Below are positions 6,006 through 25,930 of a stretch of 28,490 nucleotides of DNA, in pieces; position 1 is the first letter of the stretch; every line of letters begins with the position of its first letter. Source of the stretch: a virus; IMG/VR virus record IMGVR_UViG_3300047462_000719, positions 1-28,490 of that record. The stretch is one strand, 5' to 3'. Below the pieces are notes generated by a model that saw nothing but the letters and a program-made list of their open reading frames with translations, ran no database searches and had not been told where the DNA came from. A program made the position numbers and the translations under genes.

Positions 6006-6008
6006 GTC

Positions 6009-7379
6009 CTATGACTCAATCGGTGTATAGGAGCGCCGCGCATCAAACGCACCATTACCGCCCAAAGGCCCGTTCATCCAGGCAATCATGCGTTCTCCGA
6101 CTGCACGACCTATAACATCTCCGTCAAGTTCGACGCTGGTATGCACAACAAGCGAAACCCCGCCGCCTGATTCCAAGTCTTCGGCCCCGCCGTTTCCCCG
6201 CGCGGTCGGCGTGGTCGCCTGAGATCCCGGTTCTGCTGCGGCTCCGCCGGAGCCGTTCAAATCCAAATATTCGTGTGGAACTGGTGGCACCATGGTCCTC
6301 TGCCAAGATGCGGGTGGCACTGCCGCATCGACGAACGATCTGAGCTCATCCGGTTCCAGGCTATGCAGCCCATTCACGGCTCCGCCGCCTATCTTCGACT
6401 CCGATTCTCGTCCAGCCTGCGCCTGAACCCCGTCAAGCCAGGTTCCGTTTGAGAGCAGGCCGGGCACGACGCCAGAGCCGGCCGTCGCCCCAGTAACGGA
6501 ACCCGCAGCATAATCAGTCAAACGCTTTACCAACTCCCCTATGGTAGAGTCTAACTGATCAAAAGCGAAAGGAGCGGCAGCACCATCACTGCCTATGGCG
6601 GTTGAAATGGCCGACGATAGATCGCCCGTGGTTCGCGAAACATCCGGCCCTTGATGGTTTACGTTTACTTCTGGGACGGTGACAACCCGCCGGTCGCTCG
6701 CGTTGGTGGAAAGACCTTCTGCGCCGCCACTTAAACCCGCCGTCTTCCAGATATCAAGGAATCCACCCATGTCGCCAGACGGAAAGGCGGCTCCTGTGAT
6801 CGCCACATCGGAAGGATTCGCAACAAATGGCGGAGCCTGCTCTGAGAACGATCTATCACTCGAGTTCTCACCAACCTTCGTTTCGGCGGACCCGACATCG
6901 GTCGTACCTCTACGCCAGGGCCCTTCGTCAGCAAATCCATTTTCGACGCTCGATGTAGACCCCGCCTTCTCGGACCGCTCGTCCACTCCCGTCAAAACCG
7001 ATGAAGATTGAGGCATCCGCACGCTCATGCCTCCGCCCAGAGGCGACAACGAGTCTTCATAGTTCGATCCGGGATCAGAATACTGTTGCCAGGATCCCTT
7101 TGCCGGGCCAATTTGGGTCGTCATCCCATAGACTGACCCTGTATCAGAGCTCGGTGGCGTCCGGCCGTGCATCGTGTCAGATATCGCAAAGCGTATCTCT
7201 TGGTCGAATTTGGGTAGATTGAATCCGCTGACGGCATTCCCAATGCCGGAAAAACGCGACTGTAGTTGCGTTATCGCGGCATCAAAACTTGCCATTTGAA
7301 CAGAAAGGGTTTTCAAGGCGGTTTCGGCGGCCGCGGTGTCTAAAGCCAAACCAACGCCAATCTCGAATGCTTCGATCAC
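6009..7379 (-). CDS. Putative short tape-measure protein
   Basis: A 456-aa protein starting at a GTG that overlaps the preceding stop (GTGA). It occupies the tape-measure slot between chaperone and U/X/D. The N-terminus (EIGVGLALDTAAAETALKTLSVQMASFDAAITQLQSRFSGIGNAVSGF) is helical, as in tape measures. The C-terminus (VHTSVELDGDVIGRAVGERMIAWMNGPLGGNGAFDARRSYTPIE) resembles C-termini seen on such proteins. The central 300 residues are odd: rich in Ser, Gly, Asp, Thr and Pro, probably disordered, with no long Ala-rich helix and no membrane segment. At about 1.5 Å per residue it would set a tail near 70 nm, shorter than P2 (known ratio, inferred here). A tape measure that has lost its central part is an alternative. 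Confidence 0.6.
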   Translation of the reverse strand: MIEAFEIGVGLALDTAAAETALKTLSVQMASFDAAITQLQSRFSGIGNAVSGFNLPKFDQEIRFAISDTMHGRTPPSSDTGSVYGMTTQIGPAKGSWQQYSDPGSNYEDSLSPLGGGMSVRMPQSSSVLTGVDERSEKAGSTSSVENGFADEGPWRRGTTDVGSAETKVGENSSDRSFSEQAPPFVANPSDVAITGAAFPSGDMGGFLDIWKTAGLSGGAEGLSTNASDRRVVTVPEVNVNHQGPDVSRTTGDLSSAISTAIGSDGAAAPFAFDQLDSTIGELVKRLTDYAAGSVTGATAGSGVVPGLLSNGTWLDGVQAQAGRESESKIGGGAVNGLHSLEPDELRSFVDAAVPPASWQRTMVPPVPHEYLDLNGSGGAAAEPGSQATTPTARGNGGAEDLESGGGVSLVVHTSVELDGDVIGRAVGERMIAWMNGPLGGNGAFDARRSYTPIES

Positions 7380-10934: not shown

Positions 10935-13067
10935 TCAAACGACATTAATAATATTTCCGCTACGCCAGATTGCGCCACCGGGAAGCCCAGTAGCACTGGT
11001 TGGCAAGTCTGCGATCGTTAGCGAACCACCTGCTCCCGGGCTGAGCGTCAGGGATGCGCCGATTTGCGCTGCTATCGTAACGTTCCCATTCGCTGAAAGC
11101 TGCAATATGGCTGCAGGATAAAAACCCGTAACCAGCCAGGCGCCACCGGTCTCAACAAGATCTACAACGGAATTTGCAACCAGGATAAGGTCGTTGGCGG
11201 TTGTGTTGAGTTGCGATGTAAACGCGCCGCTTTGCTTCATAGTTGCGCCGCCGGGCGCAAGAAGTCGTAGTTTCCGCCCAGACTGCACCGGCGTGCCGAC
11301 AACAACACTGGCCTGTGCGCCAACCCCATCGCCCATGACAACACAACTTGTACTGGCTTGGGTATAACCGCTACCATTTTCAGTCACACGAAAACCAATA
11401 ACTTCTCCGGCATACAGTATAACGGTGACCGCGGCACCACTACCGACTCCGGATATGAAGGCACTCGCGTGAGTATAGCCTGAACCTGGCGCCGTCACGA
11501 CGACAAAACTGATCTCGCCGGCAAACCTTATCAGGCTGCTGGGAACGACACTATCGAGCGTAGCGCCATCTGTCGTCACCCGAACATTGTCGAATATGTC
11601 CGGAACGACCAGAATATTCGCGTCAGTCGTCGACAGGTCAATACGGTCTAATCCGTTCCAGGTATTACCACGCAACAACGTATCGCCACTGCGCAAAACT
11701 ATGGCCTGATCGGGATTCACTGAAATATCCGAGCCAAAAACTCGGTTCTCGAGAACCGCAACACCGGTTCCACCATCAAAAACGGACACACCCGTTCCGC
11801 TATCGCTTATAATGATCGTGTTGCGTTCCACCGTCAGCCCGGACAAGGCGGCGGGGAACGAATAGCCGCTTCCATCCGTCTCCACGTCGTAAACCGTCAA
11901 AGCGGTCGTACAGCCAATCACTTTATTGTCTGTGACTGATACATATTGTGAGCCGCCCGGATTAATACCTACATTCGGGCCCACCACAATATTATGGCAA
12001 ACTTCGCAGTCGATGCATCCACCACTATCAATTCCGATATACGCGCCGGCAACATCGAGCATATTGTGACTGATCCGTGAGTACCGAGCGGTCATCACAA
12101 TCCCGCCCGCCGCCGGATTTTGCTGAACAATTTGATTGCTGTGGACATTGATATAATCGCCATAAACTTGAATTCCGTAAGATGCATTGTTCCAGATATA
12201 ATTCTCTATGACGTTTCCCTGCGAAAGAGACGGCGATCCAAGCGTGTAAACGGGCGGGGTCGCATTGCTGGGATTTATTGTTCCAATATTAATTCCATCG
12301 ACCGCGTTGTTGAAAATACGATTCCCCTTGATCAACAAAGACCGGCACATATTGATGGCGGTCGGGGTGCCATTCACCCCAACACCGATCCCGCTTCCAC
12401 CATTGCCGAAGATCCGGCTATCGCTGATGGTCACGTTGCTCGCCCGGAACACGCCGCATCCGTCCGAGCTGTTTCCTGAGAATTCGCACCCGGCGAAACA
12501 GTAAGATGCCGTTCCATCGTCGCTGCCCGGCCCCTGTATCGCCACCCCGCGCCCGAGCGCGCCGCTATTGTTCCGGAAGGCACAGTCACGAAATTCCGCC
12601 AGGCTGACTCCGGCGTCGACCAGTACGTTCCAGGTGTTCGCCTGCACCTGGCTCCCATTGGCATCGAATATCACGCCGTAAACGACAACGATGTTCGACT
12701 CAAACCCGACCCAAGCGCCGGTCGTTCCGGCTTCCATACGCAATAAACGAGAGACACCGGCATAGCCGCCAATGAGCACACGTGGCAACCCTCCGCTCGA
12801 CCACGATCCGTTGATAATGTAGGTCTTGGGCCCCAGGCAGAATGGTATGCCGCTTTGAACGGCCTTCGTGAATACGCCCGTATCATCACCACCCAAGCCG
12901 CAGACCCCAAACCATTCAATAAAAGGCGCATCCGAGAAGGCTGCGGCGAGACTGCGCGGCGTTCCACCCGTTCCCGTCGTCGCCGTCCAATAGGAGAGGT
13001 CCGCACCTGCCCCCCCAGCGGCCAGCTGTGTCGCGAACTGTGAAATTGGAATGTAGGTCCCACTCAT
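10935..13067 (-). CDS. Tailspike with parallel beta-helix (pectate-lyase-like) domain
   Basis: A 710-aa protein starting at the ATG at 13067, which overlaps the upstream stop as ATGA; the longer open frame is upstream read-through. The N-terminal region (residues about 1-80) ends with a family-like segment. Residues about 100-480 show repeating short strands and turns typical of right-handed beta-helices: VVVYGVIFDANGSQ, FRDCAFRNNSGALGRGVAIQG, FAGCEFSGNSSDGCGVFRASNVTISDSRIFGNGGSGIG, GNRIFNNAVDGINIG. The fold is used by phage depolymerases that cleave surface polysaccharide. Two GSGYT motifs follow. The C-terminus LPTSATGLPGGAIWRSG resembles those of other tail-fibre proteins. Catalytic residues cannot be named from sequence alone. 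Its place in the neck region is unusual. Confidence 0.82.
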   Translation of the reverse strand: MSGTYIPISQFATQLAAGGAGADLSYWTATTGTGGTPRSLAAAFSDAPFIEWFGVCGLGGDDTGVFTKAVQSGIPFCLGPKTYIINGSWSSGGLPRVLIGGYAGVSRLLRMEAGTTGAWVGFESNIVVVYGVIFDANGSQVQANTWNVLVDAGVSLAEFRDCAFRNNSGALGRGVAIQGPGSDDGTASYCFAGCEFSGNSSDGCGVFRASNVTISDSRIFGNGGSGIGVGVNGTPTAINMCRSLLIKGNRIFNNAVDGINIGTINPSNATPPVYTLGSPSLSQGNVIENYIWNNASYGIQVYGDYINVHSNQIVQQNPAAGGIVMTARYSRISHNMLDVAGAYIGIDSGGCIDCEVCHNIVVGPNVGINPGGSQYVSVTDNKVIGCTTALTVYDVETDGSGYSFPAALSGLTVERNTIIISDSGTGVSVFDGGTGVAVLENRVFGSDISVNPDQAIVLRSGDTLLRGNTWNGLDRIDLSTTDANILVVPDIFDNVRVTTDGATLDSVVPSSLIRFAGEISFVVVTAPGSGYTHASAFISGVGSGAAVTVILYAGEVIGFRVTENGSGYTQASTSCVVMGDGVGAQASVVVGTPVQSGRKLRLLAPGGATMKQSGAFTSQLNTTANDLILVANSVVDLVETGGAWLVTGFYPAAILQLSANGNVTIAAQIGASLTLSPGAGGSLTIADLPTSATGLPGGAIWRSGNIINVV

Positions 13068-14023
13068 AGCCGTATTTCCGGATTTCCATATGGATCGACA
13101 ATAACCTCGTTGGATTTGATATTGACGTTCAGGTCGGATGGCCGCGGCCCGACAGGCGGCCCAACATCGGTCGCAATGGTCATTGGCCCTGGCTGCCCGC
13201 CTGGAGCTCTCGGTATCAGCGCGGCTTCCATGACGCCGACCGTCGTCTCCACCATCGTCTGCATTGTCGAGTACTCTGCCTGATACAAAAGGCAACGTAT
13301 GAAATTCAGAGATTTCTGTGTCTGATCATCGTATGTCGTTCCCGAATACCGCAACATCGCCACCGTGCCATCTGTGAGCACCATGCGGGGAACCGTCGCC
13401 AGATACGCGTCTACCAATGCGGAAGCGACATCACGAAGCTCGAAATTGGGTGCAAATATTTTTACCATCAACCCAGCGGTTTGTTGGCGCGTCGGCCGTG
13501 TTGCGACGCCGGTCACCACGGATCTTGCGGTAATACGCCGCGCACCTGGAATAGTTAGCACCGCGCCATTCGCAGTCGCCGCCTGATCCACTGACACCGA
13601 AGCAGCGAGATCAGCAGCTATGGACGCCAACGTGTCATTGGTCTGAAATTGATAGGCATAGGGCTGGCCGTCGACAACGATCATAATCCCCTGTCCTGGT
13701 GTGACCGACCCGCCAAGCGTCAGCATATTACCTGACGTTGCTGTCCTAATTGTTGCTTCTGACAGTGATTGAGCCGACCAATCAGAAAAAAACCTGGTCG
13801 TCGTGCGACCAACATGCATTCGCTCATTGATCGTGACATTGATCGTGCCAGCGCGGAGATCGTCGTCAAGCTGCTTGGCGAAGGGCGTTCCCCGCATCAC
13901 CTTCGCGACAGTACCCGCCGTTGAGAGAATCGCGTTTCCGTTCGCGTCAACCGTACCGTTCGGATAAAACGACGTCGTTACGAGATCAGCAAGCGCGTTG
14001 AGCACATCGGAGATGTCAGCCAT
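13064..14023 (-). CDS. Neck/tail-connector-region protein, unknown function
   Basis: A 319-aa protein starting at the ATG at 14023 with AGGAGG upstream at a spacing of about 8, which argues against the longer open frame from 14170. The segment starting MADISDVLNALADLVTTSFYPNGTVDANG and continuing VMRGTPFAKQLDDDLRAGTINVTINERMHVGRTTTRFFSDW resembles hypothetical proteins encoded just before sheath genes in contractile phages. The middle has a LysM-like stretch (GQPYAYQFQTNDTLASIAADLAASV, residues about 113-137). The role could be tail terminator or sheath initiator; this is inferred from position. It is coupled on both sides (TAATG upstream, ATGA downstream). Confidence 0.6.
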   Translation of the reverse strand: MADISDVLNALADLVTTSFYPNGTVDANGNAILSTAGTVAKVMRGTPFAKQLDDDLRAGTINVTINERMHVGRTTTRFFSDWSAQSLSEATIRTATSGNMLTLGGSVTPGQGIMIVVDGQPYAYQFQTNDTLASIAADLAASVSVDQAATANGAVLTIPGARRITARSVVTGVATRPTRQQTAGLMVKIFAPNFELRDVASALVDAYLATVPRMVLTDGTVAMLRYSGTTYDDQTQKSLNFIRCLLYQAEYSTMQTMVETTVGVMEAALIPRAPGGQPGPMTIATDVGPPVGPRPSDLNVNIKSNEVIVDPYGNPEIRL

Positions 14024-14673
14024 TACGACGCCTCCTGCTCGGTCTCGACGCGCCAGCCCATCGCGCTCAATTCGGCTGCGATAACAACGCGTCGCAAACT
14101 TTGTTGATCGACCAGAATATCCGATCCCCGGATCTCGACACCAGATATTGCTGGCAGCAGGACCTGCCATCCGCCCATCCTCAGATCACCAGCGAGTGCC
14201 ACCTCGCCTGGGTCAGTCCGTCCCCCGATCGCCACCGAAGCCGGCCAATCGGCGAAAATCGTCGTCTCTGTTGCGAGACTGTCGCCACCTGGTGGATTCA
14301 GTCCGGCACTAGCGCCAGTGACCGGCCGCACAAGAGAAAGACTGGCATTGGTGCGGATCACCAACGGTGGCCGCAAATCCTCCAGTGACGCAATGAAAAA
14401 AGTTCCCATCGTTCCGATAAGGTAGTCACCCACGCCCAGATTCGAGGCGTTCGCAAGCAGATAGAAGGCGCTCTTGCCGACACCAATCGGACGCGAGAGC
14501 TGTAACTCGGCCTCTGAATCAAAAGCCGCCATAAAAACAGAGACGACTGCGGAGTTGTCCAGAGGGGAAAGGATATTTTGCGGGCGATATTGCGTCACCG
14601 GCCGCCCAACAACACTGGCAGCTATCCCGAGCCCGTAATTGACCCGCGCCTGAAGCAAACTGAGATCGGCCAT
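14023..14673 (-). CDS. Neck-region structural protein, unknown function
   Basis: A 216-aa protein from the ATG at 14673 (MADLSLLQARVNYGLGIAA), overlapping the upstream stop as TGATG. It is probably beta-rich: GRPVTQYRPQNILSPLDNSAVVSVFMAAFD, then GDYLIGTMGTFFIASLEDLRPPLVIRTNASLSLVRP. The C-terminal part (SDILVDQQSLRRVVIAAELSAMGWRVETEQEAS) is alpha/beta. I do not recognise the family. Its place between the connector-like gene and the 319-aa gene, with overlaps at both ends, suggests a head-tail joining component. Confidence 0.6.
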   Translation of the reverse strand: MADLSLLQARVNYGLGIAASVVGRPVTQYRPQNILSPLDNSAVVSVFMAAFDSEAELQLSRPIGVGKSAFYLLANASNLGVGDYLIGTMGTFFIASLEDLRPPLVIRTNASLSLVRPVTGASAGLNPPGGDSLATETTIFADWPASVAIGGRTDPGEVALAGDLRMGGWQVLLPAISGVEIRGSDILVDQQSLRRVVIAAELSAMGWRVETEQEAS

Positions 14674-15065
14674 CAAACCACCAGCCGGATTGCGCCGGTC
14701 GACAGACCTGGGCCGAACGGCACCCCAATAAAGCTGCAAAGCCGCCGGCGCCAGTCGTCGAACAAGGCCGTCCGGTCACGTACTTCGTCGCGATTATGTG
14801 TCCAAACTGCTGCCTTGTCCGTATCAAGATTCGCCGCTGCACCCGGCACCCCAGTCTCGAGTTGCCGCAGCGTCGCGAGATAGCCGCCAACAACCGTCAC
14901 TTCATTGCCACTCATGTTATTTAAGCGATACTCAAGCAGCCCATAGGCTTGAAAAAAGCGCCACCCCTGAAAACCCGTCGCCCCAGCACCATAGGCCGGA
15001 TAGCCGCAGTATCGCCGCACATCGACCTTGTCTGCATCTGTAATAGTGCCTGTGGTTCCGCTCAT
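14673..15065 (-). CDS. Head-tail connector-like protein
   Basis: A 130-aa protein (MSGTTGTITDADKVDVRRYCGYPAYGAGATGFQGWRFFQ...). The segment ITDADKVDVRRYCGYPAYG followed by a helical stretch (LATLRQLETGVPGAAANLDTDKAAVW) resembles small helical adaptor proteins of the phage neck, which bind below the portal. The C-terminal LFDDWRRRLCSFIGVPFGPGL fits a C-terminal arm. It is the first of three coupled neck genes; its stop overlaps the next start. The assignment rests on pattern and position. Confidence 0.6.
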   Translation of the reverse strand: MSGTTGTITDADKVDVRRYCGYPAYGAGATGFQGWRFFQAYGLLEYRLNNMSGNEVTVVGGYLATLRQLETGVPGAAANLDTDKAAVWTHNRDEVRDRTALFDDWRRRLCSFIGVPFGPGLSTGAIRLVV

Positions 15066-15132: not shown

Positions 15133-15261
15133 TTATTTGCTTCGAGTAATCCGGCAGCCCGCGCCCATGCGGATTTTGCCGCTGTCTTTGGTCACGGTAC
15201 CCTTCGCAATGCGGCAGCCAGCGCCGACGCGAATGCGCCCATTGTCTTTGGTATTTGCCAT
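15133..15261 (-). CDS. 42-aa microprotein with duplicated 15-residue motif
   Basis: ATG at 15261, preceded by GGAG at a spacing of 6, and TAA at 15133. The 42-aa product contains TKDNGRIRVGAGCRI (residues 4-18) and TKDSGKIRMGAGCRI (24-38), identical at 12 of 15 positions and linked by AKGTV. Each copy has one Cys (C16 and C36) in the same place. The repeat, good ribosome site and clean ends argue that it is a real gene, although it is short. It sits between the SGNH fibre and the connector gene. I know no family for it; a small structural, decoration or metal-binding protein is possible. Confidence 0.7.
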   Translation of the reverse strand: MANTKDNGRIRVGAGCRIAKGTVTKDSGKIRMGAGCRITRSK

Positions 15262-15297
15262 TTTCGTCTCCATGGAGTGTTCAGGCCCTCACGCAAC

Positions 15298-15320
15298 ACG
15301 CGCGAGCTCGTAACGCGCGT
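15298..15320 (-). other. Hairpin at the end of the SGNH fibre gene
   Basis: Minus-strand ACGCGCG and CGCGCGT flank a 9-nt loop, starting at the SGNH stop codon. No U-tract follows, so it is more likely to be an RNA processing or attenuation element than a terminator. Confidence 0.4.
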
Positions 15321-18300
15321 CAAAGGCGCACGAAGCTGGATGGTCGAAATGTTGGAACGGCGATTTTCAGCGCGCGACAGACGGCGCTGGCGACCCTGGG
15401 GGCGAGGAACGCATGGCCAGCCCCGAGCGGATGCACGTCACCATTGCTGTAAAGACCGTTGCTGGCATAGACGGTATTGCTTACACTTTGGCCGAGATCG
15501 ATCAGAAACGTGTTACCATCGCCAGGGTTGGTGGTGAGATAGTTGGAAACCGCCACCCTCAAGGCTGTTGCATATGTACTCATCGGCGCAGCGCCGGAGA
15601 AGAACGCAGCATTGTAGAAGGGAAACGGCATTATGACGGCAACGATCGCAGCTGGCGCGGCCGCCCGTAATTTCTGCAACACCCCATAGATCGACGTATA
15701 AAAGTCGGTCGCGAGCAACGATGTGCTCGTGTTATAGAGTGCCTCATTGGTCCCGAGGTTGAGCACGATGAAGGACGGTGGCGTCCCGGTCGCCCCGTAG
15801 GCACTGATCTGGCCGTTGCTATCAAGAATTGACACGTTGCTGTCAATGTAGTTCCAGCGCGACAGACCGGGCTGATATGTCCCGCCGGTGACGGAATAAT
15901 AGGCTGGCACGTCCGACGTATAATCGCCCGGCTTCAGCCACCCATTATACCCACAGGCACTGATGCACGTGTCATAACCGGCAATATCCAGGGCTTGCAT
16001 AAGGTAGTATGAATAATCGAGTAGAAAATTACCGCCGATATTGCTGCTGTCTGTGGCGATGCCCTCAGTGATGCTGTCGCCAACGATCAATCCCCAAGGC
16101 CGATTGCTGACAGTCGAGGCGACTGGATTTGAACCCCCATCGAGCACGATGCCGGCGACCGTTGTGTAATTGATCGGAGTGTAACCGCTCGTCACCCCAT
16201 TGAGAGATTGCCAACGGTTCGCCTGCCAGCTGGCCTGCAGGAATATCTGTAGTGTGTTCGTCTGCCCCGCAATGATACCGGCCGGGATAAGGAATTGGCC
16301 CGACGTTGGCATTGCGTTGCCGGGCTGCAGGCTGCCGTTGAGCAGATAGGCAAAGGTCGCCGTCTGCAGCGTGCCCGTTTGTGGCTGCACTGCCGTTGAT
16401 GACGGCGACGAAATCAGTATTGCCGCCGATGGGTTAGTCGCGGCTGCTGTCCACTGGCATTTGACCCACGCGCCGTTGTTCCAGCTTTGCCGATAGGTCT
16501 GCCCGGTCCGGGCAGACCCGCAGGTCCAGTTGCCCGGACTGAACTGGAATGAGGAGTTGTTGGCGTTGTAAGTCACCGGGCCGGCCGATGCGGCGAAAGT
16601 CGTGGTGATCGTGGCGAAGCCGTTCGACGCGATTGCCGTGATCGTCACACTGGCCACCGCAGCAGCCGTGTAGGTGAACGATTTGCCCGCCGTCTGACCG
16701 GCGGTGAAGCTGAGCGTCGTCGCACTCAGGCTGCCGCCGGTTGGGCTGGCAGAAATGGTGACGGTGGCGGCCGCCGGCAGTGCGCCGTTTGGTGTCACCG
16801 TGAAGGTCTGCGCCACTCCTTGCGGCCCGCCTGTGGGAGCCAAGGTAAAGTTGAACGCTGTGGCTGCTGGCGGGATGTCGGAATAAATCTGGGCGTATTG
16901 AATGACGGCCAAGTTCGCGCTCGGATCGTATGTCGCGATCCCCAGAGCGCCCGCGCCGTTTGTGGCATTTCCCTGTAGCGCCGTCGTCGTGTCAGTCACC
17001 ACCAGCGTGCCGATCAAGCTGCCGCTGCTCACTGCGCCCCCGATCGAAACCGCTGGATTATACATCGACAGTGTCAGCGTCGTGGTCGTGCTATTGCTCT
17101 GCACGACAGAAAAATCGATACTGTAAAGCACCGTGTTCGGGATGCTGGTGAGCGAACCGGTTGATGGGTATTGTCCAAGCGGGTTAAATGATCCGCCCGA
17201 AAATTTATAGATGATCAGATATCCCCCGTTGTAGCCGCCCAGATAGGCTGCCGCAGCGCTGGTCGATCCATTATGGCGGGCAACGGCAAAAATCTGGTCA
17301 ACGTAATACCCCGAGACGACGATACGGCCGTTGTAATCAGCATATCGTTCCGATCGCAGCAGCGGCGCCACCTGCACGCCTATTGAGCCCCCCGTAGAGC
17401 TGCACGCGAGCCGACCGGTCGAGGTAATCGACCACTGGCCACCGACATTGTCGATCCACCCGTTTTGCAACGTGCTCCCGGCTACGGCATTGGCCGAGAC
17501 CGGGCCAGTGAATGTGACGGTGCTGAGCTGCGGATACCATTGTGAGGCAAGCGAGGCCGTCACCAAAAGCGTGCCCGGAGAGCCGCTGACCGTTGAATTG
17601 GTTGGCGTAATCGTATGCGGGCCGAACGCGGCTGGCGTGTAATAAAACACCACAGACAAAGCAGCGCCGGCCGACACTGTGACAGAACCAACTGTCGGGC
17701 TCCCGGTCGCTGACAGGGAGAACGTCCCGCCTGCGCCATCGGAGAGTGAAATTGTCTGGTTTGCAGCGAAGACGCCGTTGGTTGGCGTGATGTAAAATGG
17801 ACCGGCGGTCACCCCAACAACTGCCGAGCTCGGCCCGGAAAACTGGTACGAGGTCGTTATAAGAGCCTGATCGGTGAACACCCCAATCGCCTGCACCACG
17901 GCTGTGCCGGCCCCGGCATAGGTTCCGATGCCAGGGACGCCCGTTGTGCTGCTGATGAGCGCGGCGGAGGTGAAGCTGCCGAGTGTCGTTCCGCTATCAG
18001 TATAACTTATGGTCTGGCTATAGGCTCCGCCTGCGGCGGTCAGAATGGATGCACTCAGAGTGGCCACGCCCGCGGTCGTGGTCACACTGAAATCAAGAAT
18101 ATAGGTGGTGCCAGGAGAAAATGCCGAGCCGTTGCCGCCATTCGGCGGCGAAACGGGCAGCGTCCCTGAATAGGCGCCATTGACGAATATCGACAGGTTA
18201 AGCGTGTTTCCGGTGCAGTTCGCCGCGTAGCACGACGCGCCGGTCGTCTGGCCGTTGTGGCGCAGCAACGCGTATGTCTGCGTATAGCCCGTCCCGGCAA

Positions 18301-18574
18301 TAAATGCCACCCGTATACGCTGATCCGCCATCGGCTGCGAGGTCAGAAGCAGCGCGCTGTCAACCGGCGGATAGCCGGTCTCGTTCGCACTGACCAGGTT
18401 GCCGGCGGAGTTGACGCTCCATACACCGCCTGAAACATCGATCCAACCGGACTGGAGCATGCTGCCCGCGACGGTGCTGCCGGAGGTCGGGATAAATCCG
18501 GGCGTTGAAGCGACCGGCGCAGTCGGACTGGCTGAGGTGTATCCGTTCTGCTGAATGCAATACCAGGTGCTCAT
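15320..18574 (-). CDS. Large fibre/adhesin with LamG-like repeats, Ig-like segments and C-terminal SGNH hydrolase domain
   Basis: A 1084-aa protein from the ATG at 18574, which overlaps the upstream stop as ATGA. The N-terminal half has two copies of a LamG-like (concanavalin-like) module: VAGSMLQSGWIDVSGGVW near residue 37 and VAGSTLQNGWIDNVGGQW near residue 360. They are separated and followed by Ig-like, Gly/Thr-rich stretches. From about residue 825 an SGNH/GDSL fold follows: block I GDSITEG with the nucleophile Ser near 834, a GYNG block II, LGTNEA block III near 943, and DVHPLGAGH with His near 1048. Such domains deacylate surface polysaccharides. The Asp lies two, not three, residues before the His, which differs from the usual DxxH. 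The protein lies among head genes rather than at the tail tip. Confidence 0.85.
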   Translation of the reverse strand: MSTWYCIQQNGYTSASPTAPVASTPGFIPTSGSTVAGSMLQSGWIDVSGGVWSVNSAGNLVSANETGYPPVDSALLLTSQPMADQRIRVAFIAGTGYTQTYALLRHNGQTTGASCYAANCTGNTLNLSIFVNGAYSGTLPVSPPNGGNGSAFSPGTTYILDFSVTTTAGVATLSASILTAAGGAYSQTISYTDSGTTLGSFTSAALISSTTGVPGIGTYAGAGTAVVQAIGVFTDQALITTSYQFSGPSSAVVGVTAGPFYITPTNGVFAANQTISLSDGAGGTFSLSATGSPTVGSVTVSAGAALSVVFYYTPAAFGPHTITPTNSTVSGSPGTLLVTASLASQWYPQLSTVTFTGPVSANAVAGSTLQNGWIDNVGGQWSITSTGRLACSSTGGSIGVQVAPLLRSERYADYNGRIVVSGYYVDQIFAVARHNGSTSAAAAYLGGYNGGYLIIYKFSGGSFNPLGQYPSTGSLTSIPNTVLYSIDFSVVQSNSTTTTLTLSMYNPAVSIGGAVSSGSLIGTLVVTDTTTALQGNATNGAGALGIATYDPSANLAVIQYAQIYSDIPPAATAFNFTLAPTGGPQGVAQTFTVTPNGALPAAATVTISASPTGGSLSATTLSFTAGQTAGKSFTYTAAAVASVTITAIASNGFATITTTFAASAGPVTYNANNSSFQFSPGNWTCGSARTGQTYRQSWNNGAWVKCQWTAAATNPSAAILISSPSSTAVQPQTGTLQTATFAYLLNGSLQPGNAMPTSGQFLIPAGIIAGQTNTLQIFLQASWQANRWQSLNGVTSGYTPINYTTVAGIVLDGGSNPVASTVSNRPWGLIVGDSITEGIATDSSNIGGNFLLDYSYYLMQALDIAGYDTCISACGYNGWLKPGDYTSDVPAYYSVTGGTYQPGLSRWNYIDSNVSILDSNGQISAYGATGTPPSFIVLNLGTNEALYNTSTSLLATDFYTSIYGVLQKLRAAAPAAIVAVIMPFPFYNAAFFSGAAPMSTYATALRVAVSNYLTTNPGDGNTFLIDLGQSVSNTVYASNGLYSNGDVHPLGAGHAFLAPRVASAVCRALKIAVPTFRPSSFVRL

Positions 18575-20091
18575 AGCCACCTGAACAGCGGCAGGCCAAC
18601 GGTAGCGGTGACATAGATCATCGCCCCGTTAGACAATGGTTCATCCCAATTGTAGCCTGTCGTGGAGTTGGAGACGACGATGGTGCTTGGCGCCGAACTC
18701 GGCGCTGTTGTCGCCACCGTGAATGTTACAGACGCTCCGGCCGGCAAATACAGCCTGGCGCCAGACGCGTTGCCCGGCAGTGTGCCCAGAGCGGTGCCGG
18801 TCGTGCTGCCGGCCGGCACGGGGCCGATCGAACCCACACCAGCATTCGGTACTGAGGAAATCGCCACTGTCCCGGCGACTGATTGTACAGCTGGCAAGTT
18901 CGCAATCGTGATCGGGCTGACAATGGTGCCCTGATTGGCGACAGAGACCGTTCCGCTCACCGTCACGGTGTTCGTCACCGAGACCGAGCCCGTCACCGTC
19001 TGTGTGCCGGCTGATGCTACGGAGACCGGCACCGTGCCCACAATAGCGACGGAACCTATGGTATTCGATCCCGCGGGCAAAGCCGGCAGGCTCAAAATAC
19101 CCACCGACCCCGCCACAGACTGCGTCCCCGGGAAATTCGTGACGCTGATGTTGCCGCCCAAGGTTCCCGGATTGGCGACCGTGACCGTGCCGCTGATGGG
19201 CTGCACAATGGGAAGATTTCCGACAACAACAGTTCCCGCAACCGCCGCAGTGCCGGCGATACTGACCGTGCCGCCTATCGTTCCGGGATTGGCGACAGTA
19301 ACGGTTCCGGAGACGGCCTGTATACTGGGCAGGTTTGCAACGGTGACCGCGCCGACGCTGAGCGACGTAAGATTAGCGACATTGACCGGGATCGTTCCGA
19401 TAATTCCGACATTTCCGATCGAGGCCGAGCCGGCCGGCAGCGCCGGCAACGCCGAGACGCCGACAATGCCTGCAACCGCCGCTGTGCCGCTGATACTGAC
19501 GCTGCCGCCAGTGGTTCCGGGATTGGCAATCGTAATCGTGCCCGCAACAGTCTGTATACTTGGAATATTGGCGACGGTAACGGTACTCGCCACACTTGCA
19601 ATGAAAGTCCCTGGATTGGCGATACTGACCGGAATTGTGCCGATGATTCCAACATTACCAATCGATGCAGCACCCGCAGGTAGACTCGGCAGCGTTACTC
19701 CGATCGTGCCCGCCACCGCCTGGACGGCAGGAAAATTTGATACCGTAACGGTGCTGGCGCTGGCAAAATTGCCTGCATTGGCAATTGTGACCGGGCCGAT
19801 GACCCCGACATTGCCGATTGATGCTGAACCGGTCGGCAGACTGGGCAGCGTTACCCCGACAGTGCCACCAAACAGAGCGAGCGTGCCGGAAACCGCTTGC
19901 GTGCCAGGCAGATTGGCAACGGTAACTGTATTCGCAACCGAGCCGGGATTGGCTACTGTAACGGTCCCGGTGACCGGCTGTACTACCGGCAGGTTGGCAA
20001 CAGTAACAATAGCAGTGGTTACTGTCGTAGATCCGCCGCCGGAGCCGCTGCCAGAGCTACCACTCGCTGGCGTGCTAAAATGGCCAGACAT
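18571..20091 (-). CDS. Solenoid-like repeat protein, probable fibre shaft
   Basis: A 506-aa protein made mostly of short repeats. Type A, (V/I)-x-V-x-N-(L/F/I)-P-x-x-Q-x-(V/I)-x-G, occurs eight times by my count (for example VTVANLPVVQPVTG). Type B, LPxLPxGxxxIGxVxxxG, occurs four times (for example LPSLPAGAASIGNVGIIG), interleaved with type A. The N-terminus is a Ser/Gly-rich arm (SGSSGSGSGGGST), and the last 75 residues form a unique globular-looking domain (LYLPAGASVTFTVATT... LPLFRWL). Repeats of this type are common in phage fibres and are expected to form a beta-solenoid trimer. The start directly abuts the upstream stop, and the stop overlaps the SGNH gene. I infer a shaft that may carry the SGNH protein. 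Confidence 0.75.
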   Translation of the reverse strand: MSGHFSTPASGSSGSGSGGGSTTVTTAIVTVANLPVVQPVTGTVTVANPGSVANTVTVANLPGTQAVSGTLALFGGTVGVTLPSLPTGSASIGNVGVIGPVTIANAGNFASASTVTVSNFPAVQAVAGTIGVTLPSLPAGAASIGNVGIIGTIPVSIANPGTFIASVASTVTVANIPSIQTVAGTITIANPGTTGGSVSISGTAAVAGIVGVSALPALPAGSASIGNVGIIGTIPVNVANLTSLSVGAVTVANLPSIQAVSGTVTVANPGTIGGTVSIAGTAAVAGTVVVGNLPIVQPISGTVTVANPGTLGGNISVTNFPGTQSVAGSVGILSLPALPAGSNTIGSVAIVGTVPVSVASAGTQTVTGSVSVTNTVTVSGTVSVANQGTIVSPITIANLPAVQSVAGTVAISSVPNAGVGSIGPVPAGSTTGTALGTLPGNASGARLYLPAGASVTFTVATTAPSSAPSTIVVSNSTTGYNWDEPLSNGAMIYVTATVGLPLFRWL

Positions 20092-20490
20092 TTAGTATTG
20101 TGTTCCATTTCCAACGGTAACAAAAATGGTTCCCGCGTTGACACTGTTGCTAATGACAGAAACGATAGTACAATACGGACCGAACGCAATTAATCTGGAC
20201 CCATTTGGGGGAACAGGAAATCCGGTGAAATCCGCAACCGTTCCGGTTCCGCCAACGGCGACGAAACAAACGTCGGTGGTGTCATTGTATACGAGTACGT
20301 TTTCGCCTTCCGAGATAATACTATAAGGATTTGCCGCCGGAACGACATTGGCCAAATTTGTTATCATTTTGTTTGCACCGGAAAAAATCGGTGCCGTTCG
20401 CACGATCGTGGCGGACTGCGCAATGACCGCATTCGCAGAGAGTGCCACAGTGGCAACTGGTTGGAACGCTTGGACGGATCCCGTGCCCAT
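20092..20490 (-). CDS. Beta-rich structural protein, unknown function
   Basis: A 132-aa protein from the ATG at 20490 (MGTGSVQAFQPVATVALSANAVI), one base after the upstream stop. The longer frame is rejected because it overlaps the preceding gene. It contains alternating strands and turns (SEGENVLVYNDTTDVCFVAVGG, FPVPPNGSRLIAFGPYCTIVSVISNSVNAGTIFVTVGNG), compatible with a small jelly-roll or Ig-like fold such as a capsid decoration or fibre-anchoring protein. It sits between the two small paralogues and the solenoid gene. No family recognised. Confidence 0.6.
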   Translation of the reverse strand: MGTGSVQAFQPVATVALSANAVIAQSATIVRTAPIFSGANKMITNLANVVPAANPYSIISEGENVLVYNDTTDVCFVAVGGTGTVADFTGFPVPPNGSRLIAFGPYCTIVSVISNSVNAGTIFVTVGNGTQY

Positions 20491-20491
20491 G

Positions 20492-20752
20492 TCAGGCGGC
20501 CACAATCGGAGCGTTCTGCTTTCCCAGCGCTGCGAGCAGGGCTGCATCGAGCTGATACGGAAACCCACTTCTGAAGCTCAACGTCTGTCCCTGCCACACG
20601 AATGAATAATTGGCGGTGAACACATACACCGGCGCTTCTGCGTTGCCATTGGCGACGGTCGCAGCTGCGGAGGCGGAGAGCTCTGAGTCGGTCGCACCCG
20701 ACACAACGTCCGCCGTGGTTGTCTGGTCGCCGTGATAAATATCACCCAACAT
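20492..20752 (-). CDS. Small phage protein, paralogue of the upstream gene
   Basis: An 86-aa protein whose ATG follows directly the stop of the preceding gene. The C-terminal half (VYVFTANYSFVWQGQTLSFRSGFPYQLDAALLAALGKQNAPIV) aligns with that of the neighbour: both have VF, F, W-G-TLS-R, a later Tyr and L-AAL. The N-terminal half is a low-complexity Ser/Ala/Asn-rich segment. A small head-associated protein is likely from the position just downstream of the capsid gene; function unknown. Confidence 0.6.
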   Translation of the reverse strand: MLGDIYHGDQTTTADVVSGATDSELSASAAATVANGNAEAPVYVFTANYSFVWQGQTLSFRSGFPYQLDAALLAALGKQNAPIVAA

Positions 20753-20971
20753 CTAACTCTCCCAGACAATATCGCGGTCAGTCGCCAGCAGCGCGGCTTT
20801 GAGCGGACTCTCAACTGCGTAGCGGGTCCGCGCGCGGTAACTGAGCGTGCAGCCCCGCCATTGAATGGCGAAATCCTGCATTGCTACAAAGACGTGCAAC
20901 CCGGCCGCCGGCGTCGGGAGTTTGGGGGCCTCCTGCCTGGCGGCTGTTTTTGTGCCGGTGCTGCTTGCCAT
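20753..20971 (-). CDS. Small phage protein downstream of capsid, unknown function
   Basis: A 72-aa protein from the ATG at 20971, with a GGAGGA ribosome site at a spacing of about 6. The longer frame from 21001 would overlap the capsid gene and is not needed. The core LHVFVAMQDFAIQWRGCTLSYRARTRYAVESPLKAALLATDRDIV is clearly related to the next gene. It lies 14 bp after the capsid stop. Position suggests a head completion or decoration role; this is inference. Confidence 0.6.
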   Translation of the reverse strand: MASSTGTKTAARQEAPKLPTPAAGLHVFVAMQDFAIQWRGCTLSYRARTRYAVESPLKAALLATDRDIVWES

Positions 20972-20984: not shown

Positions 20985-22343
20985 TTAGCCAACGTGCTCA
21001 ATCATCACGGCACGCTTATAGGCAGCGTTGGTAGCGGTCGGTATGTTGCTGGTGCTGGTATTGATGTCGGTCGGCGCACAGTAGCCACCGATCCAGTACC
21101 AGGACTGCGCGATAATCTGCTGCAGGCGATCGAGCGGTTCGCGCGTCACCATTGCGACACCGTCAACCATGGTGATGATGCTGTCCGCCGGCGCTACCTC
21201 CGCGGCCGTCATACCGGCATAATCGCCCTCAATCAGCGCCCCCTGCCCACAGATGATCGGCCGCCGCACATTGAGATTGGCGATTGTCGGATGCGCCTGC
21301 ACATACGCCTCTGTGGTCGGCATAAACCGCAAGCCAAGGAATTCGTTGGTCATACCCTGCCGAAAAACGGCATTTGACGATGTCGCACCCTGAAACAACT
21401 GCTTGAAGTCCGGATCAGAGAATAATTGCCGTGCCGACACCGGATCGAGATAGCAGTTATAGACACCATCGATCTCCGGTACTGCATTCTGCCGCAGCTT
21501 TGCCACCGCATCGAGCAGATTGGACATCGATAGCGTATCGGTCGATTGCAGGATCGACGTGTTGCTGCGCCCGTTCGGCCGCACGATCACACTGGCGTTC
21601 GCGGCCTGCACTGCGTTGCCTGCTGCCCCGTCACTGATACTGACGCTGGTTGAGAACGTCAGCGTGCCCGAGATCCCTCCGGGCGTGGTTGAAATGTTCA
21701 CTGTGTCGGCCGTCAAGCCTATGCAGGTGTATAAGTTGCTGCCAACCGCAACCGTCAGTGTCGCACTGCTCGACACAGCAACCATCGTCGGTGAGGTAGA
21801 GCCGGTCGCAACGCTTCCCAGACCTGCAAAACCTGGCACAAACTGAAATCCACGTAGATCGTCGACCATCATCGTGGGGCCCGCGGTGGCCAGCGTCTGC
21901 GTCACCCTTGTATTGCCGCCGAAATACGCTGCAAACAGGGCGTTGCGCGCGATTTCATCCAGGCTTCGGGCCGCTTGCTCACCGTTTATCGCCGCATTGA
22001 GCAGAAATTGGCTGGCGATGCCAACGCGGCTGGTGACGGTGTTTAAATCCGTCGTTGCGGCGTATTGATTGATTGAAATCGTATACTGCTCGACCGATTC
22101 GTACGTCGGCGTCAGACCATTGTCGAGATTTGTGTTGGTCGAGGCATTCAGCGGCGTGGTAACGCTCGGTTTAAGACCTGGCCGGGTCTTGGTCAGCGTT
22201 TCACCAATTCCGATGGCAAATTCTTCCCGGTCGGCAATGGCCCGATAGCCAAGCCGCGAGCGCAGAGCGGTCTCGAACTCGCGCTCCAAAAACCCCTGCT
22301 GAATGATTGGTTGCAGTGCAAGCGGAAAATTACTGATGCCCAT
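20985..22343 (-). CDS. Major capsid protein (HK97-fold, N4-gp56-like) with beta-rich insertion
   Basis: A 452-aa protein. The N-terminal part (ALQPIIQQGFLEREFETALRSRLGYRAIADREEFA) and the core (YTISINQYAATTDLNTVTSRVGIASQFLLNAAINGEQAARSLDEIARNALF, residues about 88-138; LLDAVAKLRQNAVPEIDGVYNCYLDPVSARQLFSDPDF, 276-313) fit a HK97-fold coat protein of the N4-gp56/P22 type. Residues about 176-258 are a Ser/Thr/Val-rich beta segment that looks like an inserted domain. AAGGGG lies before the ATG. It follows portal and scaffold genes, which supports the call. Confidence 0.85.
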   Translation of the reverse strand: MGISNFPLALQPIIQQGFLEREFETALRSRLGYRAIADREEFAIGIGETLTKTRPGLKPSVTTPLNASTNTNLDNGLTPTYESVEQYTISINQYAATTDLNTVTSRVGIASQFLLNAAINGEQAARSLDEIARNALFAAYFGGNTRVTQTLATAGPTMMVDDLRGFQFVPGFAGLGSVATGSTSPTMVAVSSSATLTVAVGSNLYTCIGLTADTVNISTTPGGISGTLTFSTSVSISDGAAGNAVQAANASVIVRPNGRSNTSILQSTDTLSMSNLLDAVAKLRQNAVPEIDGVYNCYLDPVSARQLFSDPDFKQLFQGATSSNAVFRQGMTNEFLGLRFMPTTEAYVQAHPTIANLNVRRPIICGQGALIEGDYAGMTAAEVAPADSIITMVDGVAMVTREPLDRLQQIIAQSWYWIGGYCAPTDINTSTSNIPTATNAAYKRAVMIEHVG

Positions 22344-22425: not shown

Positions 22426-22947
22426 TCAGCGGCGCTTGATGATTTCCCGACGCGCGGTCCGCCACTCGTCAACACTCATCTCCGATGCGAGTTTGGCGCG
22501 TGGCGACTGCTCCGATGGCGGCCTGGCCGTGCTGGTGCTCGAAGCCTGGCCAAACAGCCAGGGTTTCGCCGAACGCAAACTTGCTATCAGTGACTCGGCA
22601 CCCTCGACATCGCCGGCCTCATTCAGCCGAACGCCGGACAGATCAATCAACCGCAGACCGTCCAGATCGACGATGCCGGCCTTGATCGCGTGCGCCTTCA
22701 ATTCGGCGCGCACCACGCGCTCATTGGCGACGGATTGCACACCCGCCACCAACCGCTCGCTGTCCTGTCGCGCGGCGGCAATCGCCTCATCGCGCTGCCG
22801 TTCCGCTTCAAGTGCGCGCAATCTGTGCTGCCGTGCCTCGGTACGCAATTTTTTCTCGTACGTGGTCGGCTCGCGCGGCGTATCCGCAACCTCTACCAAA
22901 GCATCTGGATCAGCCGCCTCTGGAGCGGGTCCCGTCGCATCAGACAT
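22426..22947 (-). CDS. Scaffold-like protein
   Basis: A 173-aa protein from the ATG at 22947 (MSDATGPAPEAADPDALVEV), with GGGAG before it. The TTG-initiated extension of six residues is less likely. Residues about 35-75 are a highly charged helix (EKKLRTEARQHRLRALEAERQRDEAIAAARQDSERL) with coiled-coil character, followed by AIKAGIVDLDGLRLIDLSGVRLNEAGDVEGAESLIASLRSAKPWLF, a pattern of phage scaffolding proteins. The C-terminus is basic (EWRTARREIIKRR), as expected for coat binding. It lies between portal and capsid genes. It would direct procapsid assembly and be lost on maturation. Confidence 0.75.
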   Translation of the reverse strand: MSDATGPAPEAADPDALVEVADTPREPTTYEKKLRTEARQHRLRALEAERQRDEAIAAARQDSERLVAGVQSVANERVVRAELKAHAIKAGIVDLDGLRLIDLSGVRLNEAGDVEGAESLIASLRSAKPWLFGQASSTSTARPPSEQSPRAKLASEMSVDEWRTARREIIKRR

Positions 22948-22996
22948 CAAATTCTCCCAAAACAAGTCATTTCGTTCTCGTCGAAGATTTGCCGTT

Positions 22997-23040: not shown

Positions 23041-24501
23041 CTACAAACCAGCATGGGCGTCCAACCGCGGTTCACGATGTAAATCATTTAGCGCCGCCAG
23101 ATCGGCCCCGATCCGATGAAGCTCCCCCAAAACGTCTTCGACGTCGTAGGTCGGTGCCAATTCCTTCACTGCCGTTTCGCGGCTCATTACACCCGCTGCT
23201 GTCGCAGCGGATATCGCCTGCGCCTGCTGCATTTTGTCCGCCAAGGTCAGGCTGAACCATGGTCCCCATTTAAGTGAAAGCCGCGCATTCATCGGCAATG
23301 CCGCAATCGCTTCACCAAAAACTTTCAACTCGAATCGGTGCGAGGCCTTGATCACCATTCGCATCAGCCGCAGCAGGCCGTCCTCGCCGTAGCTGACCCG
23401 CAAGTTGTCGGCCAGGCTGATCAAGGGCGCAAACAGCAACTCCATCGCTCGACCGGACTGCGCCGCCGAAACGCGATCGGCATTGCTTCGGTTGCCGTGA
23501 ATACTCTCCAACGCCATTTCCCGCAGTGTTCTGACATATTCAATCACCGCTGATGATGCGGTGCCGCTGATCTCGAGCATCTTTGCATCGCCATCGGCGC
23601 TGACAATTATGGCTGAACTGCTCGAACGTACCAGATTTGCGTCCGAAGTTGCCGGCTCTTTGAGTAGCAAAGTTGGGTCTGAACTATATTTCAGGCCCCT
23701 ACCGGCCTGCGACAGCTGATAATCGATTTCAATATTGGTCTCGATCGCCGCGCGGAAGGTGCAAGCGCCATCGACCGCATCCCCGCCGGGCAGATTTCGT
23801 ATCCACACGATCGGGACAAATCCCAGCCGGTGCCAGACAGAGCGATCCCGGTCTTTCCGCATCGCATTATCAGTGTCACCCACCGCCCAGGGCAAATACC
23901 AGGTCTCAGAGTCCGTGTCCCACGAACGCACAAACCAGAAGTCCGTCTGTATGTCGTCATCATCAATACTATAGCCTTGTTGAATCAGCGCGCTACCCTT
24001 GACCTTACGCTGCTCCACCACTTTAGCGAGTGTGTCTGGCGCCTCGTCCTGCCATTCCGGCGTCAGATAAAGCGTATCCATCACTTCGAAAAACAGCCGG
24101 CCACGCAAGACCCGCATCACAATAACGACGGATCCGATTGATCCGCGTAAGGCCGCTTCGAGCATTACACGATTGAGCAAGGTTTCCTTGACGATGTCGC
24201 CCAATATTTTTCGTGCGGTCGGGTCGTCGACGTCAATCGTCGGGAAGCGCCCCTCGCCGAACAGCAATGCCACGCTGTCTTCAACAACCATGCGGCACAT
24301 CCCATACCGCACCGACGGCTGTCGTTCTGAGATCGGTATATACTCGCCGTCGCCACCTGTGCCGATCCGCTCTTGATGAAACTGATACGGCAGCAACTCA
24401 TATAAGGATCCATTGAGCACCCGCCGGAGGCAGTCGAGCCGCCAGGTTCGGTCGAGATAATCCTGATCCCGCGGCACCCTATTGGCTATGTTCCCAAACA
24501 T
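23041..24501 (-). CDS. Portal protein
   Basis: A 486-aa protein of the SPP1 gp6-like portal type. After the N-terminal region (RTWRLDCLRRVLNGSLYELLPYQFHQE) it has a middle of alternating strands (GSVVIVMRVLRGRLFFEVMDTLYLTPEW; YGMCRMVVEDSVALLFGEGRFP) and a C-terminal helical part (EYVRTLREMALESIHGNRSNADRVSAAQSGRAMELLFAPLISLADNLRVSYGEDGLLRLMRMVI), as expected for the stem, wing and crown of the dodecameric ring at one capsid vertex. GGGGGAAG lies before the ATG. It is 14 bp after the terminase gene, the usual order. Confidence 0.88.
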   Translation of the reverse strand: MFGNIANRVPRDQDYLDRTWRLDCLRRVLNGSLYELLPYQFHQERIGTGGDGEYIPISERQPSVRYGMCRMVVEDSVALLFGEGRFPTIDVDDPTARKILGDIVKETLLNRVMLEAALRGSIGSVVIVMRVLRGRLFFEVMDTLYLTPEWQDEAPDTLAKVVEQRKVKGSALIQQGYSIDDDDIQTDFWFVRSWDTDSETWYLPWAVGDTDNAMRKDRDRSVWHRLGFVPIVWIRNLPGGDAVDGACTFRAAIETNIEIDYQLSQAGRGLKYSSDPTLLLKEPATSDANLVRSSSSAIIVSADGDAKMLEISGTASSAVIEYVRTLREMALESIHGNRSNADRVSAAQSGRAMELLFAPLISLADNLRVSYGEDGLLRLMRMVIKASHRFELKVFGEAIAALPMNARLSLKWGPWFSLTLADKMQQAQAISAATAAGVMSRETAVKELAPTYDVEDVLGELHRIGADLAALNDLHREPRLDAHAGL

Positions 24502-24514: not shown

Positions 24515-25930
24515 TTATCGTGCCAGTATTGGCAGGCGCAGCATCCGCGCTGGTGCGCCGCCCCCTGTCAGCATGGCAAATGCCCGGCTCAGTGCATCGA
24601 CCTGGTCGTCTTTTTCGCCGTTTGGAAACACCTGCAGCTCGTCGATAAATGCCGCATTCCACCGCGCCCGGACCACGACAAGGTTGGCGACGCCGCACTG
24701 CGCCGCAACCGGCATCGCGCGCGTCAGCTTCGGCCCGCTCTCGGGCGACGCCCTCACCTGATACCCGGCAAGCTTGCGCGTGAGGTAGAGTATTTGCGCC
24801 CGACCCGCCTGGCCCGGGTCCTGCGGCAGGCCGATCGGCACGCTCGACCCATCACGTGCCGCCATGGAGACGATGGCTTGTTCCACCTCATGCGGGCCGC
24901 CACGCAATCGCATCACGTCGAGCACGATAAATTGGCCGGAGGCCGAGCGCATCAGTTTCAACCCGACCGTCCAGTCCGGATTTCGACCGGCGCCGGAACT
25001 CGTCGCCGCCAGGTCCCAGGCGCGAACCGTCAAGCCATCGTTGACCGGTTCGACCTCAAGAAAAGCGATCCGTTCGACGGTGAAAATGCCTGCCGATGCC
25101 GGACGCGGATCCTGCTGAAACAGCGCCGACCAGGCGCGCTCACCGAGCATGTCGCGTTTACGTAACAAGGCAGCCAAATCCTCCCATTCGGGCCAAATTG
25201 GCTCGCCGGGCGACCGCCCGAGCGGATCTTCGGCCAGCGCCAGTGCCGGCAGGCAAAGGCTCCTCCAGGTTTCACTGCTTTGCAGCAAACGGCCGCCGAG
25301 ATCATCTTCATGCCATCGCGTCATAACGATAACGATTCGCCCCCTCGGCTTCAACCGCGGGATAAGTTCGGATCGATACCATGACCAGACATTGTCACGT
25401 TGACCAATACTATCGGCCTCAGACTGAGATTTTATCGGATCGTCGATGATAACCAGATCAGCGCGACGACCAACGATCGGGCCACGAACGCCGGCGCTAT
25501 GATAGAAACCCCGCCGGTCATTACGCCAGCTCATTGCATTTCGCTGGTCCGCCGCCAAAGCATATCCCAGTCGAAGCGAATGTTCTTTCACCATGTTGCG
25601 GATTTGCCGGGAGAAATGCGCCGCCAGGTCCGCCGTATGCGAGGCCCCTATTACTGAACTGTTCGGATGCTGGATAAACCACCATGCCGGAAACAATACC
25701 GATGTATAGGTGGACTTCGCCGCTCCCGGCGGCATCAGTACAATAAGGCGATCCACCTCCCCACGGCTGACAGCCTCCAACTCCTCGATCAGCTTCAGGT
25801 GATGGCGGGCCGGCTGCTGGGCGAGCGGGCTCAGCGCAAAGCGCGACCACTCAGCCAGCGAGGTCCGAATCTTCTCTCGTAACTCGTTCTCCGCACGATA
25901 GTTGTTCCAGATATCGCGCAAGCTCAGCAT
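24515..25930 (-). CDS. terL: Terminase large subunit
   Basis: A 471-aa terminase that packages DNA into the capsid. The ATPase part has Walker A MPPGAAKST (66-74), Walker B LVIIDD (159-164) and motif III MTRWHEDDLGG (203-213). The RNase H-like nuclease has the acidic residues in AWDLA (Asp306), IGLPQDPG (Asp371) and KDDQVDAL (Asp441, Asp442, Asp445). All catalytic residues visible in the family are present. The ATG at 25930 overlaps the end of the small-subunit-like gene by 80 bp. A later internal start would remove N-terminal helices, so the long form is kept. Confidence 0.95.
   Translation of the reverse strand: MLSLRDIWNNYRAENELREKIRTSLAEWSRFALSPLAQQPARHHLKLIEELEAVSRGEVDRLIVLMPPGAAKSTYTSVLFPAWWFIQHPNSSVIGASHTADLAAHFSRQIRNMVKEHSLRLGYALAADQRNAMSWRNDRRGFYHSAGVRGPIVGRRADLVIIDDPIKSQSEADSIGQRDNVWSWYRSELIPRLKPRGRIVIVMTRWHEDDLGGRLLQSSETWRSLCLPALALAEDPLGRSPGEPIWPEWEDLAALLRKRDMLGERAWSALFQQDPRPASAGIFTVERIAFLEVEPVNDGLTVRAWDLAATSSGAGRNPDWTVGLKLMRSASGQFIVLDVMRLRGGPHEVEQAIVSMAARDGSSVPIGLPQDPGQAGRAQILYLTRKLAGYQVRASPESGPKLTRAMPVAAQCGVANLVVVRARWNAAFIDELQVFPNGEKDDQVDALSRAFAMLTGGGAPARMLRLPILAR

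Follow-up and report, generated by a model that had tools for sequence, protein, structure and literature searches.

Phage host-range modules are usually looked for downstream of the baseplate genes. Fibres that emerge from each capsid vertex have been described for Agrobacterium phage 7-7-1 (PMC12796354), which resembles the phage analyzed here in its contractile tail, its alphaproteobacterial host and the extra head-end fibres that we propose for ours; after its major capsid protein (MCP) gene comes a gene for a beta-rich protein of about 135 aa, and in our phage two small genes lie between the MCP gene and that of a predicted beta-rich protein. It differs in that its fibre binds flagella and its fibre gene is not known, and the text searched makes no mention of an esterase. 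Cyanophage A-1(L) bears three-protein neck fibres on a 15-mer, and its operon gp82-gp81-gp80 likewise encodes an anchor with a beta domain of about 125 residues, a repeated shaft and a larger tip; these genes lie away from the MCP gene gp4, however, and the tip is a carbohydrate-binding module instead of an esterase (PMC10966104). In DEV (Schitoviridae) gp53 is a virion fibre that lies close to the collar between head and tail and has an esterase-like domain, but this is a one-protein fibre with another anchor, in an N4-like podophage (PMC10925440). Milano has jelly-roll proteins both at the capsid (minor capsid protein gp10) and at the collar (gp13), although its collar carries no fibres (PMC10491603). 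Finally, fibre I of GP4 (gp80, PF23140, PDB 8jou) is a collar-anchored tail fibre of a Ralstonia podophage, and in several loci related to ours a fibre gene begins with this domain.

Here we describe a locus in an IMG/VR record of 28.5 kb (the window, that is, the whole 28,490-nucleotide stretch of DNA analyzed) whose product is probably an additional fibre with a sugar-deacetylating enzyme at its tip. Its parts are known and their arrangement is new among accessory phage fibres. The site that we favour for this fibre is the head end of the particle.

The phage and its structural module

The window holds a myophage structural module read on the minus strand. The genes for the large terminase (24515-25930), portal (23041-24501), scaffold (22426-22965) and MCP (20985-22343, 452 aa; PHROG 1357, major head protein, 3e-36) are found at one end; the tail sheath gene (8818-10605; PHROG 23, 7.5e-34) is followed by hub, spike and wedge genes, and baseplate J lies at 1824-2987. 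No tail tube or tape measure gene was identified by homology in the window. At the left edge, also on the minus strand, a baseplate-end tail-fibre gene matches PHROG 863, so that the fibre noticed there in a preliminary description made from the sequence is real. Three genes of 130, 238 and 324 aa, presumed to have neck or head-completion functions, lie downstream of the cassette described below. The neck label of the first (14673-15065, minus strand; hereafter neck130; 52% identical in phage phiKX1) and of another (14023-14649, minus strand) was given by position, since their products match exclusively PHROG families of unknown function (PHROG 14539 for neck130), and comparison of the presumed neck protein profiles with the PDB gave no informative relative.

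More than 500 relatives of the window MCP were found in IMG/VR and 127 in GTDB genomes, the titled hosts of the latter being mostly Acetobacteraceae. The named relatives are Komagataeibacter phages phiKX1 and phiKX2 (51% identity), from a study in which all induced phages were of myovirus type (PMC8566455). The window phage is a member of a large, mostly Acetobacteraceae-associated myophage family. Membership of a P2- or Mu-like group was rejected on the basis of these relatives, and the comparison with P2 and Mu drawn in the preliminary description does not apply.

Three coupled genes between capsid and neck genes

Downstream of the capsid accessory genes and upstream of the neck genes, the minus strand encodes p132, p506 and p1086, in this order. 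The 132-aa protein p132 (20092-20490) starts with the ATG at 20490 and its stop ends at 20092, p506 (506 aa) occupies 20091-18571, and p1086 starts either with GTG at 18580 (1086 aa) or with ATG at 18574 (1084 aa; 15320-18574) and stops at 15320. Stop and start codons touch throughout, as TAAATG at the p132/p506 junction and as an ATGA-type overlap between p506 and p1086, which bears out the tight coupling reported earlier for these three genes. A scan for promoters and terminators revealed no feature setting the cassette apart from its operon. Upstream, two small post-capsid genes on the same strand, apparent paralogues of each other, intervene between p132 and the MCP gene: p82 (20753-20971; the ORF is listed from 21001 with its ATG at 20971, and its product is 76% identical in contig L002) and p86 (20492-20752, 86 aa). 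In relatives the p86-type gene also occurs without fibre genes, either alone in the same slot (L115, L127, L128) or with p132 only (L140). At the other end, between p1086 and neck130, the minus strand contains an ORF of 42-46 aa (15133-15273) with an internal tandem duplication (KDNGRIRVGAGCRI / KDSGKIRMGAGCRI), which has no counterpart in any relative locus compared.

The third protein, p1086, ends in a GDSL esterase domain. Pfam Lipase_GDSL (PF00657) matched residues 832-1060 with 35.1 bits against a curated cut-off of 23.6, and the putative catalytic residues are Ser836, Asn945 and His1050 (numbered from the GTG at 18580). Ser836 and Asn945 lie in the motifs GDS (834-836) and GTN (943-945); the Asp before His1050 is at 1048, in a DxH rather than DxxH arrangement, a departure that counts against our reading. 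This match confirms the earlier SGNH assignment and supports the enzymatic (esterase) tip that had been proposed with it. In contrast, the LamG and Ig domains assigned to the same protein were not recovered, as it gave no Pfam match to them at E 0.1 and no internal repeat by BLAST; two similar stretches near residues 39-60 and 367-390 were seen by eye only. No relative of p1086 was found in IMG/VR and phage records. The preceding protein, p506, is an NFP/VANP-repeat protein without a match in Pfam or PHROG. Its counterparts in L003 and L004 are 42-45% identical over the matched parts, and one distant match was found in IMG/VR and phage records, on a contig with a portal-like gene. Its repeats have a weak period of 39/78 residues and its AF2 model (pLDDT 33) is meaningless, and the solenoid fold once ascribed to it was not confirmed. 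The neighbourhoods of NFP-repeat proteins in other phages are mixed, often near tail-fibre genes. It is reasonable to take p506 as the candidate stalk of a fibre and p1086 as its candidate tip.

None of the three proteins matched PHROG at E 0.01 and hence none belongs to an annotated head-fibre family there; p132 also had no match in Pfam, and neither p132 nor p1086 had a relative among PDB sequences. By these searches (PHROG for all three, the PDB for p132 and p1086), no sequence relative with a known position in a virion was found for the cassette proteins of the window.

p132 varies with the fibre type

The AF2 model of p132 is a beta sandwich of nine strands (pLDDT 83.6), in agreement with its earlier description as beta-rich, with a 30-residue insertion predicted at low confidence. 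By alignment this corresponds to an extra loop of about 30 aa (residues ~28-57) relative to a family of proteins of about 102 aa. Structure searches of the PDB gave generic jelly-roll matches (best E 3e-3, Bacillus Ena pilus subunits; VIA Z up to 8.5), and those of BFVD gave unnamed phage proteins of about 100 aa with E values down to 4e-6. The absence of A-1(L) gp82N and of the GP4 chains among the matches listed for the p132 structure carries no weight; by sequence, p132 did not match the A-1(L) neck-fibre PDB chains. A homologue of p132 (E 1e-12) is encoded in a P22-like phage, where its gene adjoins a gp10-like stabilization gene and fibre-like genes. In the p132 family the N-terminal motif M-x-x-G-S-x-Q-P-F-R-P is kept with or without a fibre, which suggests a constant partner for this end of the protein.

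Between the window and L002, L003 and L004, p132 identity is only 30%, whereas the MCPs of these contigs are 88, 86 and 83% identical to that of the window. For pairs without fibre genes whose MCPs are 85-90% identical (n=302, the pairs being non-independent observations), p132 identity averages 69% with a minimum of 38%, and among L002-L004, which have one fibre type in common, p132 is 78-81% identical. The gene is atypical in base composition, with a GC content of 0.50 (0.49 at third positions) compared with 0.58 for the window. The presumed neck protein, 73-75% identical between the window and L004 or L005, shows no covariation with the fibre type. Thus p132 tracks the type of fibre rather than the capsid. 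The simplest reading is that p132 and the fibre were replaced together, like an adaptor with its fibre, although fast evolution of one lineage could contribute to the low identity. Tracking of this kind makes p132 plausible as a fibre adaptor, and it lends indirect support to the anchor role that the preliminary description had given to this protein.

The same slot in related phages

About 220 relatives were compared overall, and for the 152 that hold both genes we measured the distance from the end of the MCP gene to neck130. A single p132-type gene of about 102 aa fills this slot in 94 of the 152, and 49 have no gene there; three have a p86-type gene only and two have p86 and p132 without a fibre. 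Phages phiKX1 and phiKX2 carry a different gene of 72 aa. Cassettes of about 5 kb were found in L004 and L005 and, in a later scan, in L246 (5.1 kb); that scan also showed in L019 a gp80-type gene and, after it, one of the p132 type. Fibre genes in the slot are restricted to a single capsid clade, which comprises the window and ten other contigs; of these, L002, L003 and L006-L009 end inside their cassettes. By this census p132 is therefore the old, standard gene of the slot in this family, and the fibre genes were added within one lineage.

The content of the cassettes differs from one contig to another. The window encodes the NFP-repeat protein p506 and the GDSL protein p1086. L003 and L004 encode an NFP-repeat protein and a protein of esterase type whose SASA domain (PF03629) scores below the cut-off in L003, and L002 is of the same type as far as its contig end. 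Three proteins are encoded in L005: one whose N-terminus is of the gp80 type but sub-threshold, one of 182 aa, and one of 815 aa with Laminin_G_3 at its end, the middle part of which was likened by inspection to the L003/L004 esterases and gave no SASA match in Pfam. L006-L009 encode gp80-type proteins (PF23140 was tested in L007 and L008), and L246 encodes a pectate-lyase-like protein (below the cut-off) and a 729-aa protein in which GDS...GN...DGTH was recognized by inspection. Four cassettes (those of the window, L004, L005 and L246) could be followed as far as the neck gene, and in all four the product of the last gene is of the SGNH/SASA type or a homologue. That one class of enzymes was chosen repeatedly tells most about the function, which we infer to be the cleavage of ester groups, O-acetyl most likely, from a surface polysaccharide.

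Synteny in the relatives, by which the preliminary description had proposed to check its reading, supports a dedicated fibre locus at the MCP-neck130 site. Judged from gene content, this slot is a genuine fibre-exchange site at which adaptor and fibre are swapped and capsid and neck genes stay. A locus adjacent to the capsid gene turns over here like tail-fibre loci, the adaptor changing with the fibre.

Genes of the gp80 or p132 type also occur between adaptor-like and gp10-like genes in three podophage-like records, C72C1 (L165), ct2t2046 (L166) and ct76p945 (L167). The annotation of the gp80 family is in conflict, PHROG 240 being named head protein and the Pfam family a GP4 fibre, and many of the 694 matching phage records are affected.

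An insertion in the capsid protein

The MCP is 452-455 aa long in all 11 carriers of fibre genes, versus 440 in nearly all other relatives. The difference corresponds to an insertion of 12-15 residues (12 in the window) at residues ~171-188, which is present in 11 of 11 carriers and in one of about 180 non-carriers. This exception, L155, has p86 and p132 without a fibre. In an MCP tree built excluding the insertion columns, a single clade (support 88/93) unites all the carriers with L155, and the insertion requires one change, the fibre two; we read L155 as a probable case of later fibre loss. Since insertion and cassette have a single origin, their association amounts to one evolutionary event and not to independent evidence, and as a hint of docking on the capsid it is suggestive only. 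The insertion was considered as strong proof of capsid docking and was downgraded for this reason.

Proposed fibre and its place on the particle

We propose that p132, a predicted jelly-roll protein whose family members are often fibre-less, acts as the adaptor, that p506 forms an oligomeric stalk and that p1086 bears the GDSL esterase at the distal end. The resulting fibre would be an accessory part of the virion, mounted at the head end, either on the capsid shell or on a collar around the head-tail junction, rather than on the baseplate, and we lean slightly towards such a location. It would keep the particle attached to the cell, where the esterase may strip surface or extracellular polysaccharide of O-acetyl (or other ester) groups and thereby help the separate baseplate fibre to reach its receptor. 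Exchange would replace adaptor and fibre jointly, with the capsid and neck genes kept. The likelihoods expressed here are our judgements and were not computed, that of the head-end location being the sum of those of collar and shell.

Collar and shell are about equally likely sites, and each is a tentative choice when taken singly. On a collar, p132 would form or bind a ring at the head-tail junction from which the fibre hangs, as in A-1(L), GP4 or DEV. The cassette comes immediately before the neck genes, and sister cassettes (L007, L008 and L019, with L005 below the cut-off) encode PF23140 in the slot. The best experimentally placed relative of any slot fibre is the collar-anchored GP4 gp80, and a gp80 relative is chain a of PDB 8jou. 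The 15-mer fibre collar of DEV has itself been likened to that of podophage GP4 (PMC10925440), the neck fibres of A-1(L) are a three-protein precedent (PMC10966104), the collar gene product of Milano is a jelly-roll protein (PMC10491603), and the p132 homologue of the P22-like phage has stabilization and fibre-like genes as neighbours. Yet PF23140 is absent from the cassette proteins of the window itself (E 0.1), the presumed neck protein varies independently of the fibre type, a profile comparison of p132 with the presumed collar protein of 7-7-1 showed no similarity, and the MCP insertion speaks for the shell. Anchoring on the capsid, as proposed in the preliminary description, with p132 (and p82 and p86) docking on its lattice or vertices, draws on this insertion in all carriers, on p132 being the usual gene directly after the MCP gene in the family, and on the precedent of 7-7-1, with a 135-aa decoration gene after the MCP gene and fibres from each vertex (PMC12796354). 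The single origin of insertion and cassette weighs against it, as does the lack of profile similarity between p132 and the 7-7-1 decoration protein (hhalign probability 0.5%). These two 7-7-1 proteins are presumed counterparts of the jelly-roll proteins of Milano. Of the capsid-anchored, esterase-tipped fibre of that description, the fibre locus, the adaptor and the enzymatic tip are supported, and the capsid is one of two about equally likely sites of anchoring. We regard as unlikely the fuller version, in which a rapidly evolving jelly-roll adaptor is swapped jointly with its esterase-tipped fibre onto a capsid whose MCP gained a putative surface loop dedicated to docking; if the capsid-shell reading were true, a temperate phage would have its host-range cassette on the head instead of the tail.

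The cassette could also encode ordinary tail or baseplate fibres, carried as cargo at an unusual genome position, which was formerly the main alternative. Gene position does not fix the position of a product in the virion, and NFP-repeat proteins lie near tail-fibre genes in other phages. But a baseplate-end fibre is already encoded at the left edge, p132 belongs to a post-capsid family and is exchanged along with the fibre, and the slot is reused in L004, L005 and L246; weakened in this way, the cargo explanation seems to us quite improbable. We give slightly less credence to a further live rival, exported enzymes that, in a lysogen or during lysis, would modify the host surface for superinfection exclusion or progeny release without being virion parts. 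Apparent Sec signal peptides, judged by inspection of N-termini, are found on the 182-aa and 815-aa proteins of L005 and on the 707-aa and 729-aa proteins of L246, where they argue against virion assembly, and in L146 and L161 a glycosyltransferase-2-like gene lies between neck genes. By the same inspection p506 and p1086 of the window and the L003/L004 proteins have no signal-peptide-like N-terminus, and the cassette is coupled to structural genes and covaries with p132. Two readings are open to us: some members of the family may secrete fibre-like proteins, or the locus may take up cargo of mixed kinds. The proteins concerned are encoded within 12172-16445 of L246 and 9354-12349 of L005; apparent signals of this sort are also seen on NFP-repeat proteins of other phages (L219, L223 and L228) and are odd for proteins assembled in the cytoplasm.

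If the product of the cassette is a fibre on the head or neck, as we favour, annotation pipelines that search only downstream of the baseplate genes would miss a class of receptor-binding enzymes. Acetobacteraceae prophages with the cassette, if found, would make the choice between capsid shell and collar directly testable.

A second fibre site in the same phages

The preliminary description had overlooked another fibre gene in the window, at 10935-13070 on the minus strand, while its observation of the cassette stands. This gene lies between p368 and the sheath gene and encodes a right-handed beta-helix fibre or spike (PF13229, 7e-15) that is 56-59% identical in L004 and L005. The gap between p368 and the sheath is below 450 bp in 115 of 118 relatives, so that these phages have here a further place where a fibre gene was inserted. 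L066 has an insertion of about 1.6 kb at this place (5697-6968), with a 326-aa ORF without a Pfam match. The glycosyltransferase-2-like genes found between two neck genes of L146 (12390-13331) and L161 (7995-8981, weak Pfam match) are possible surface-modifying cargo.
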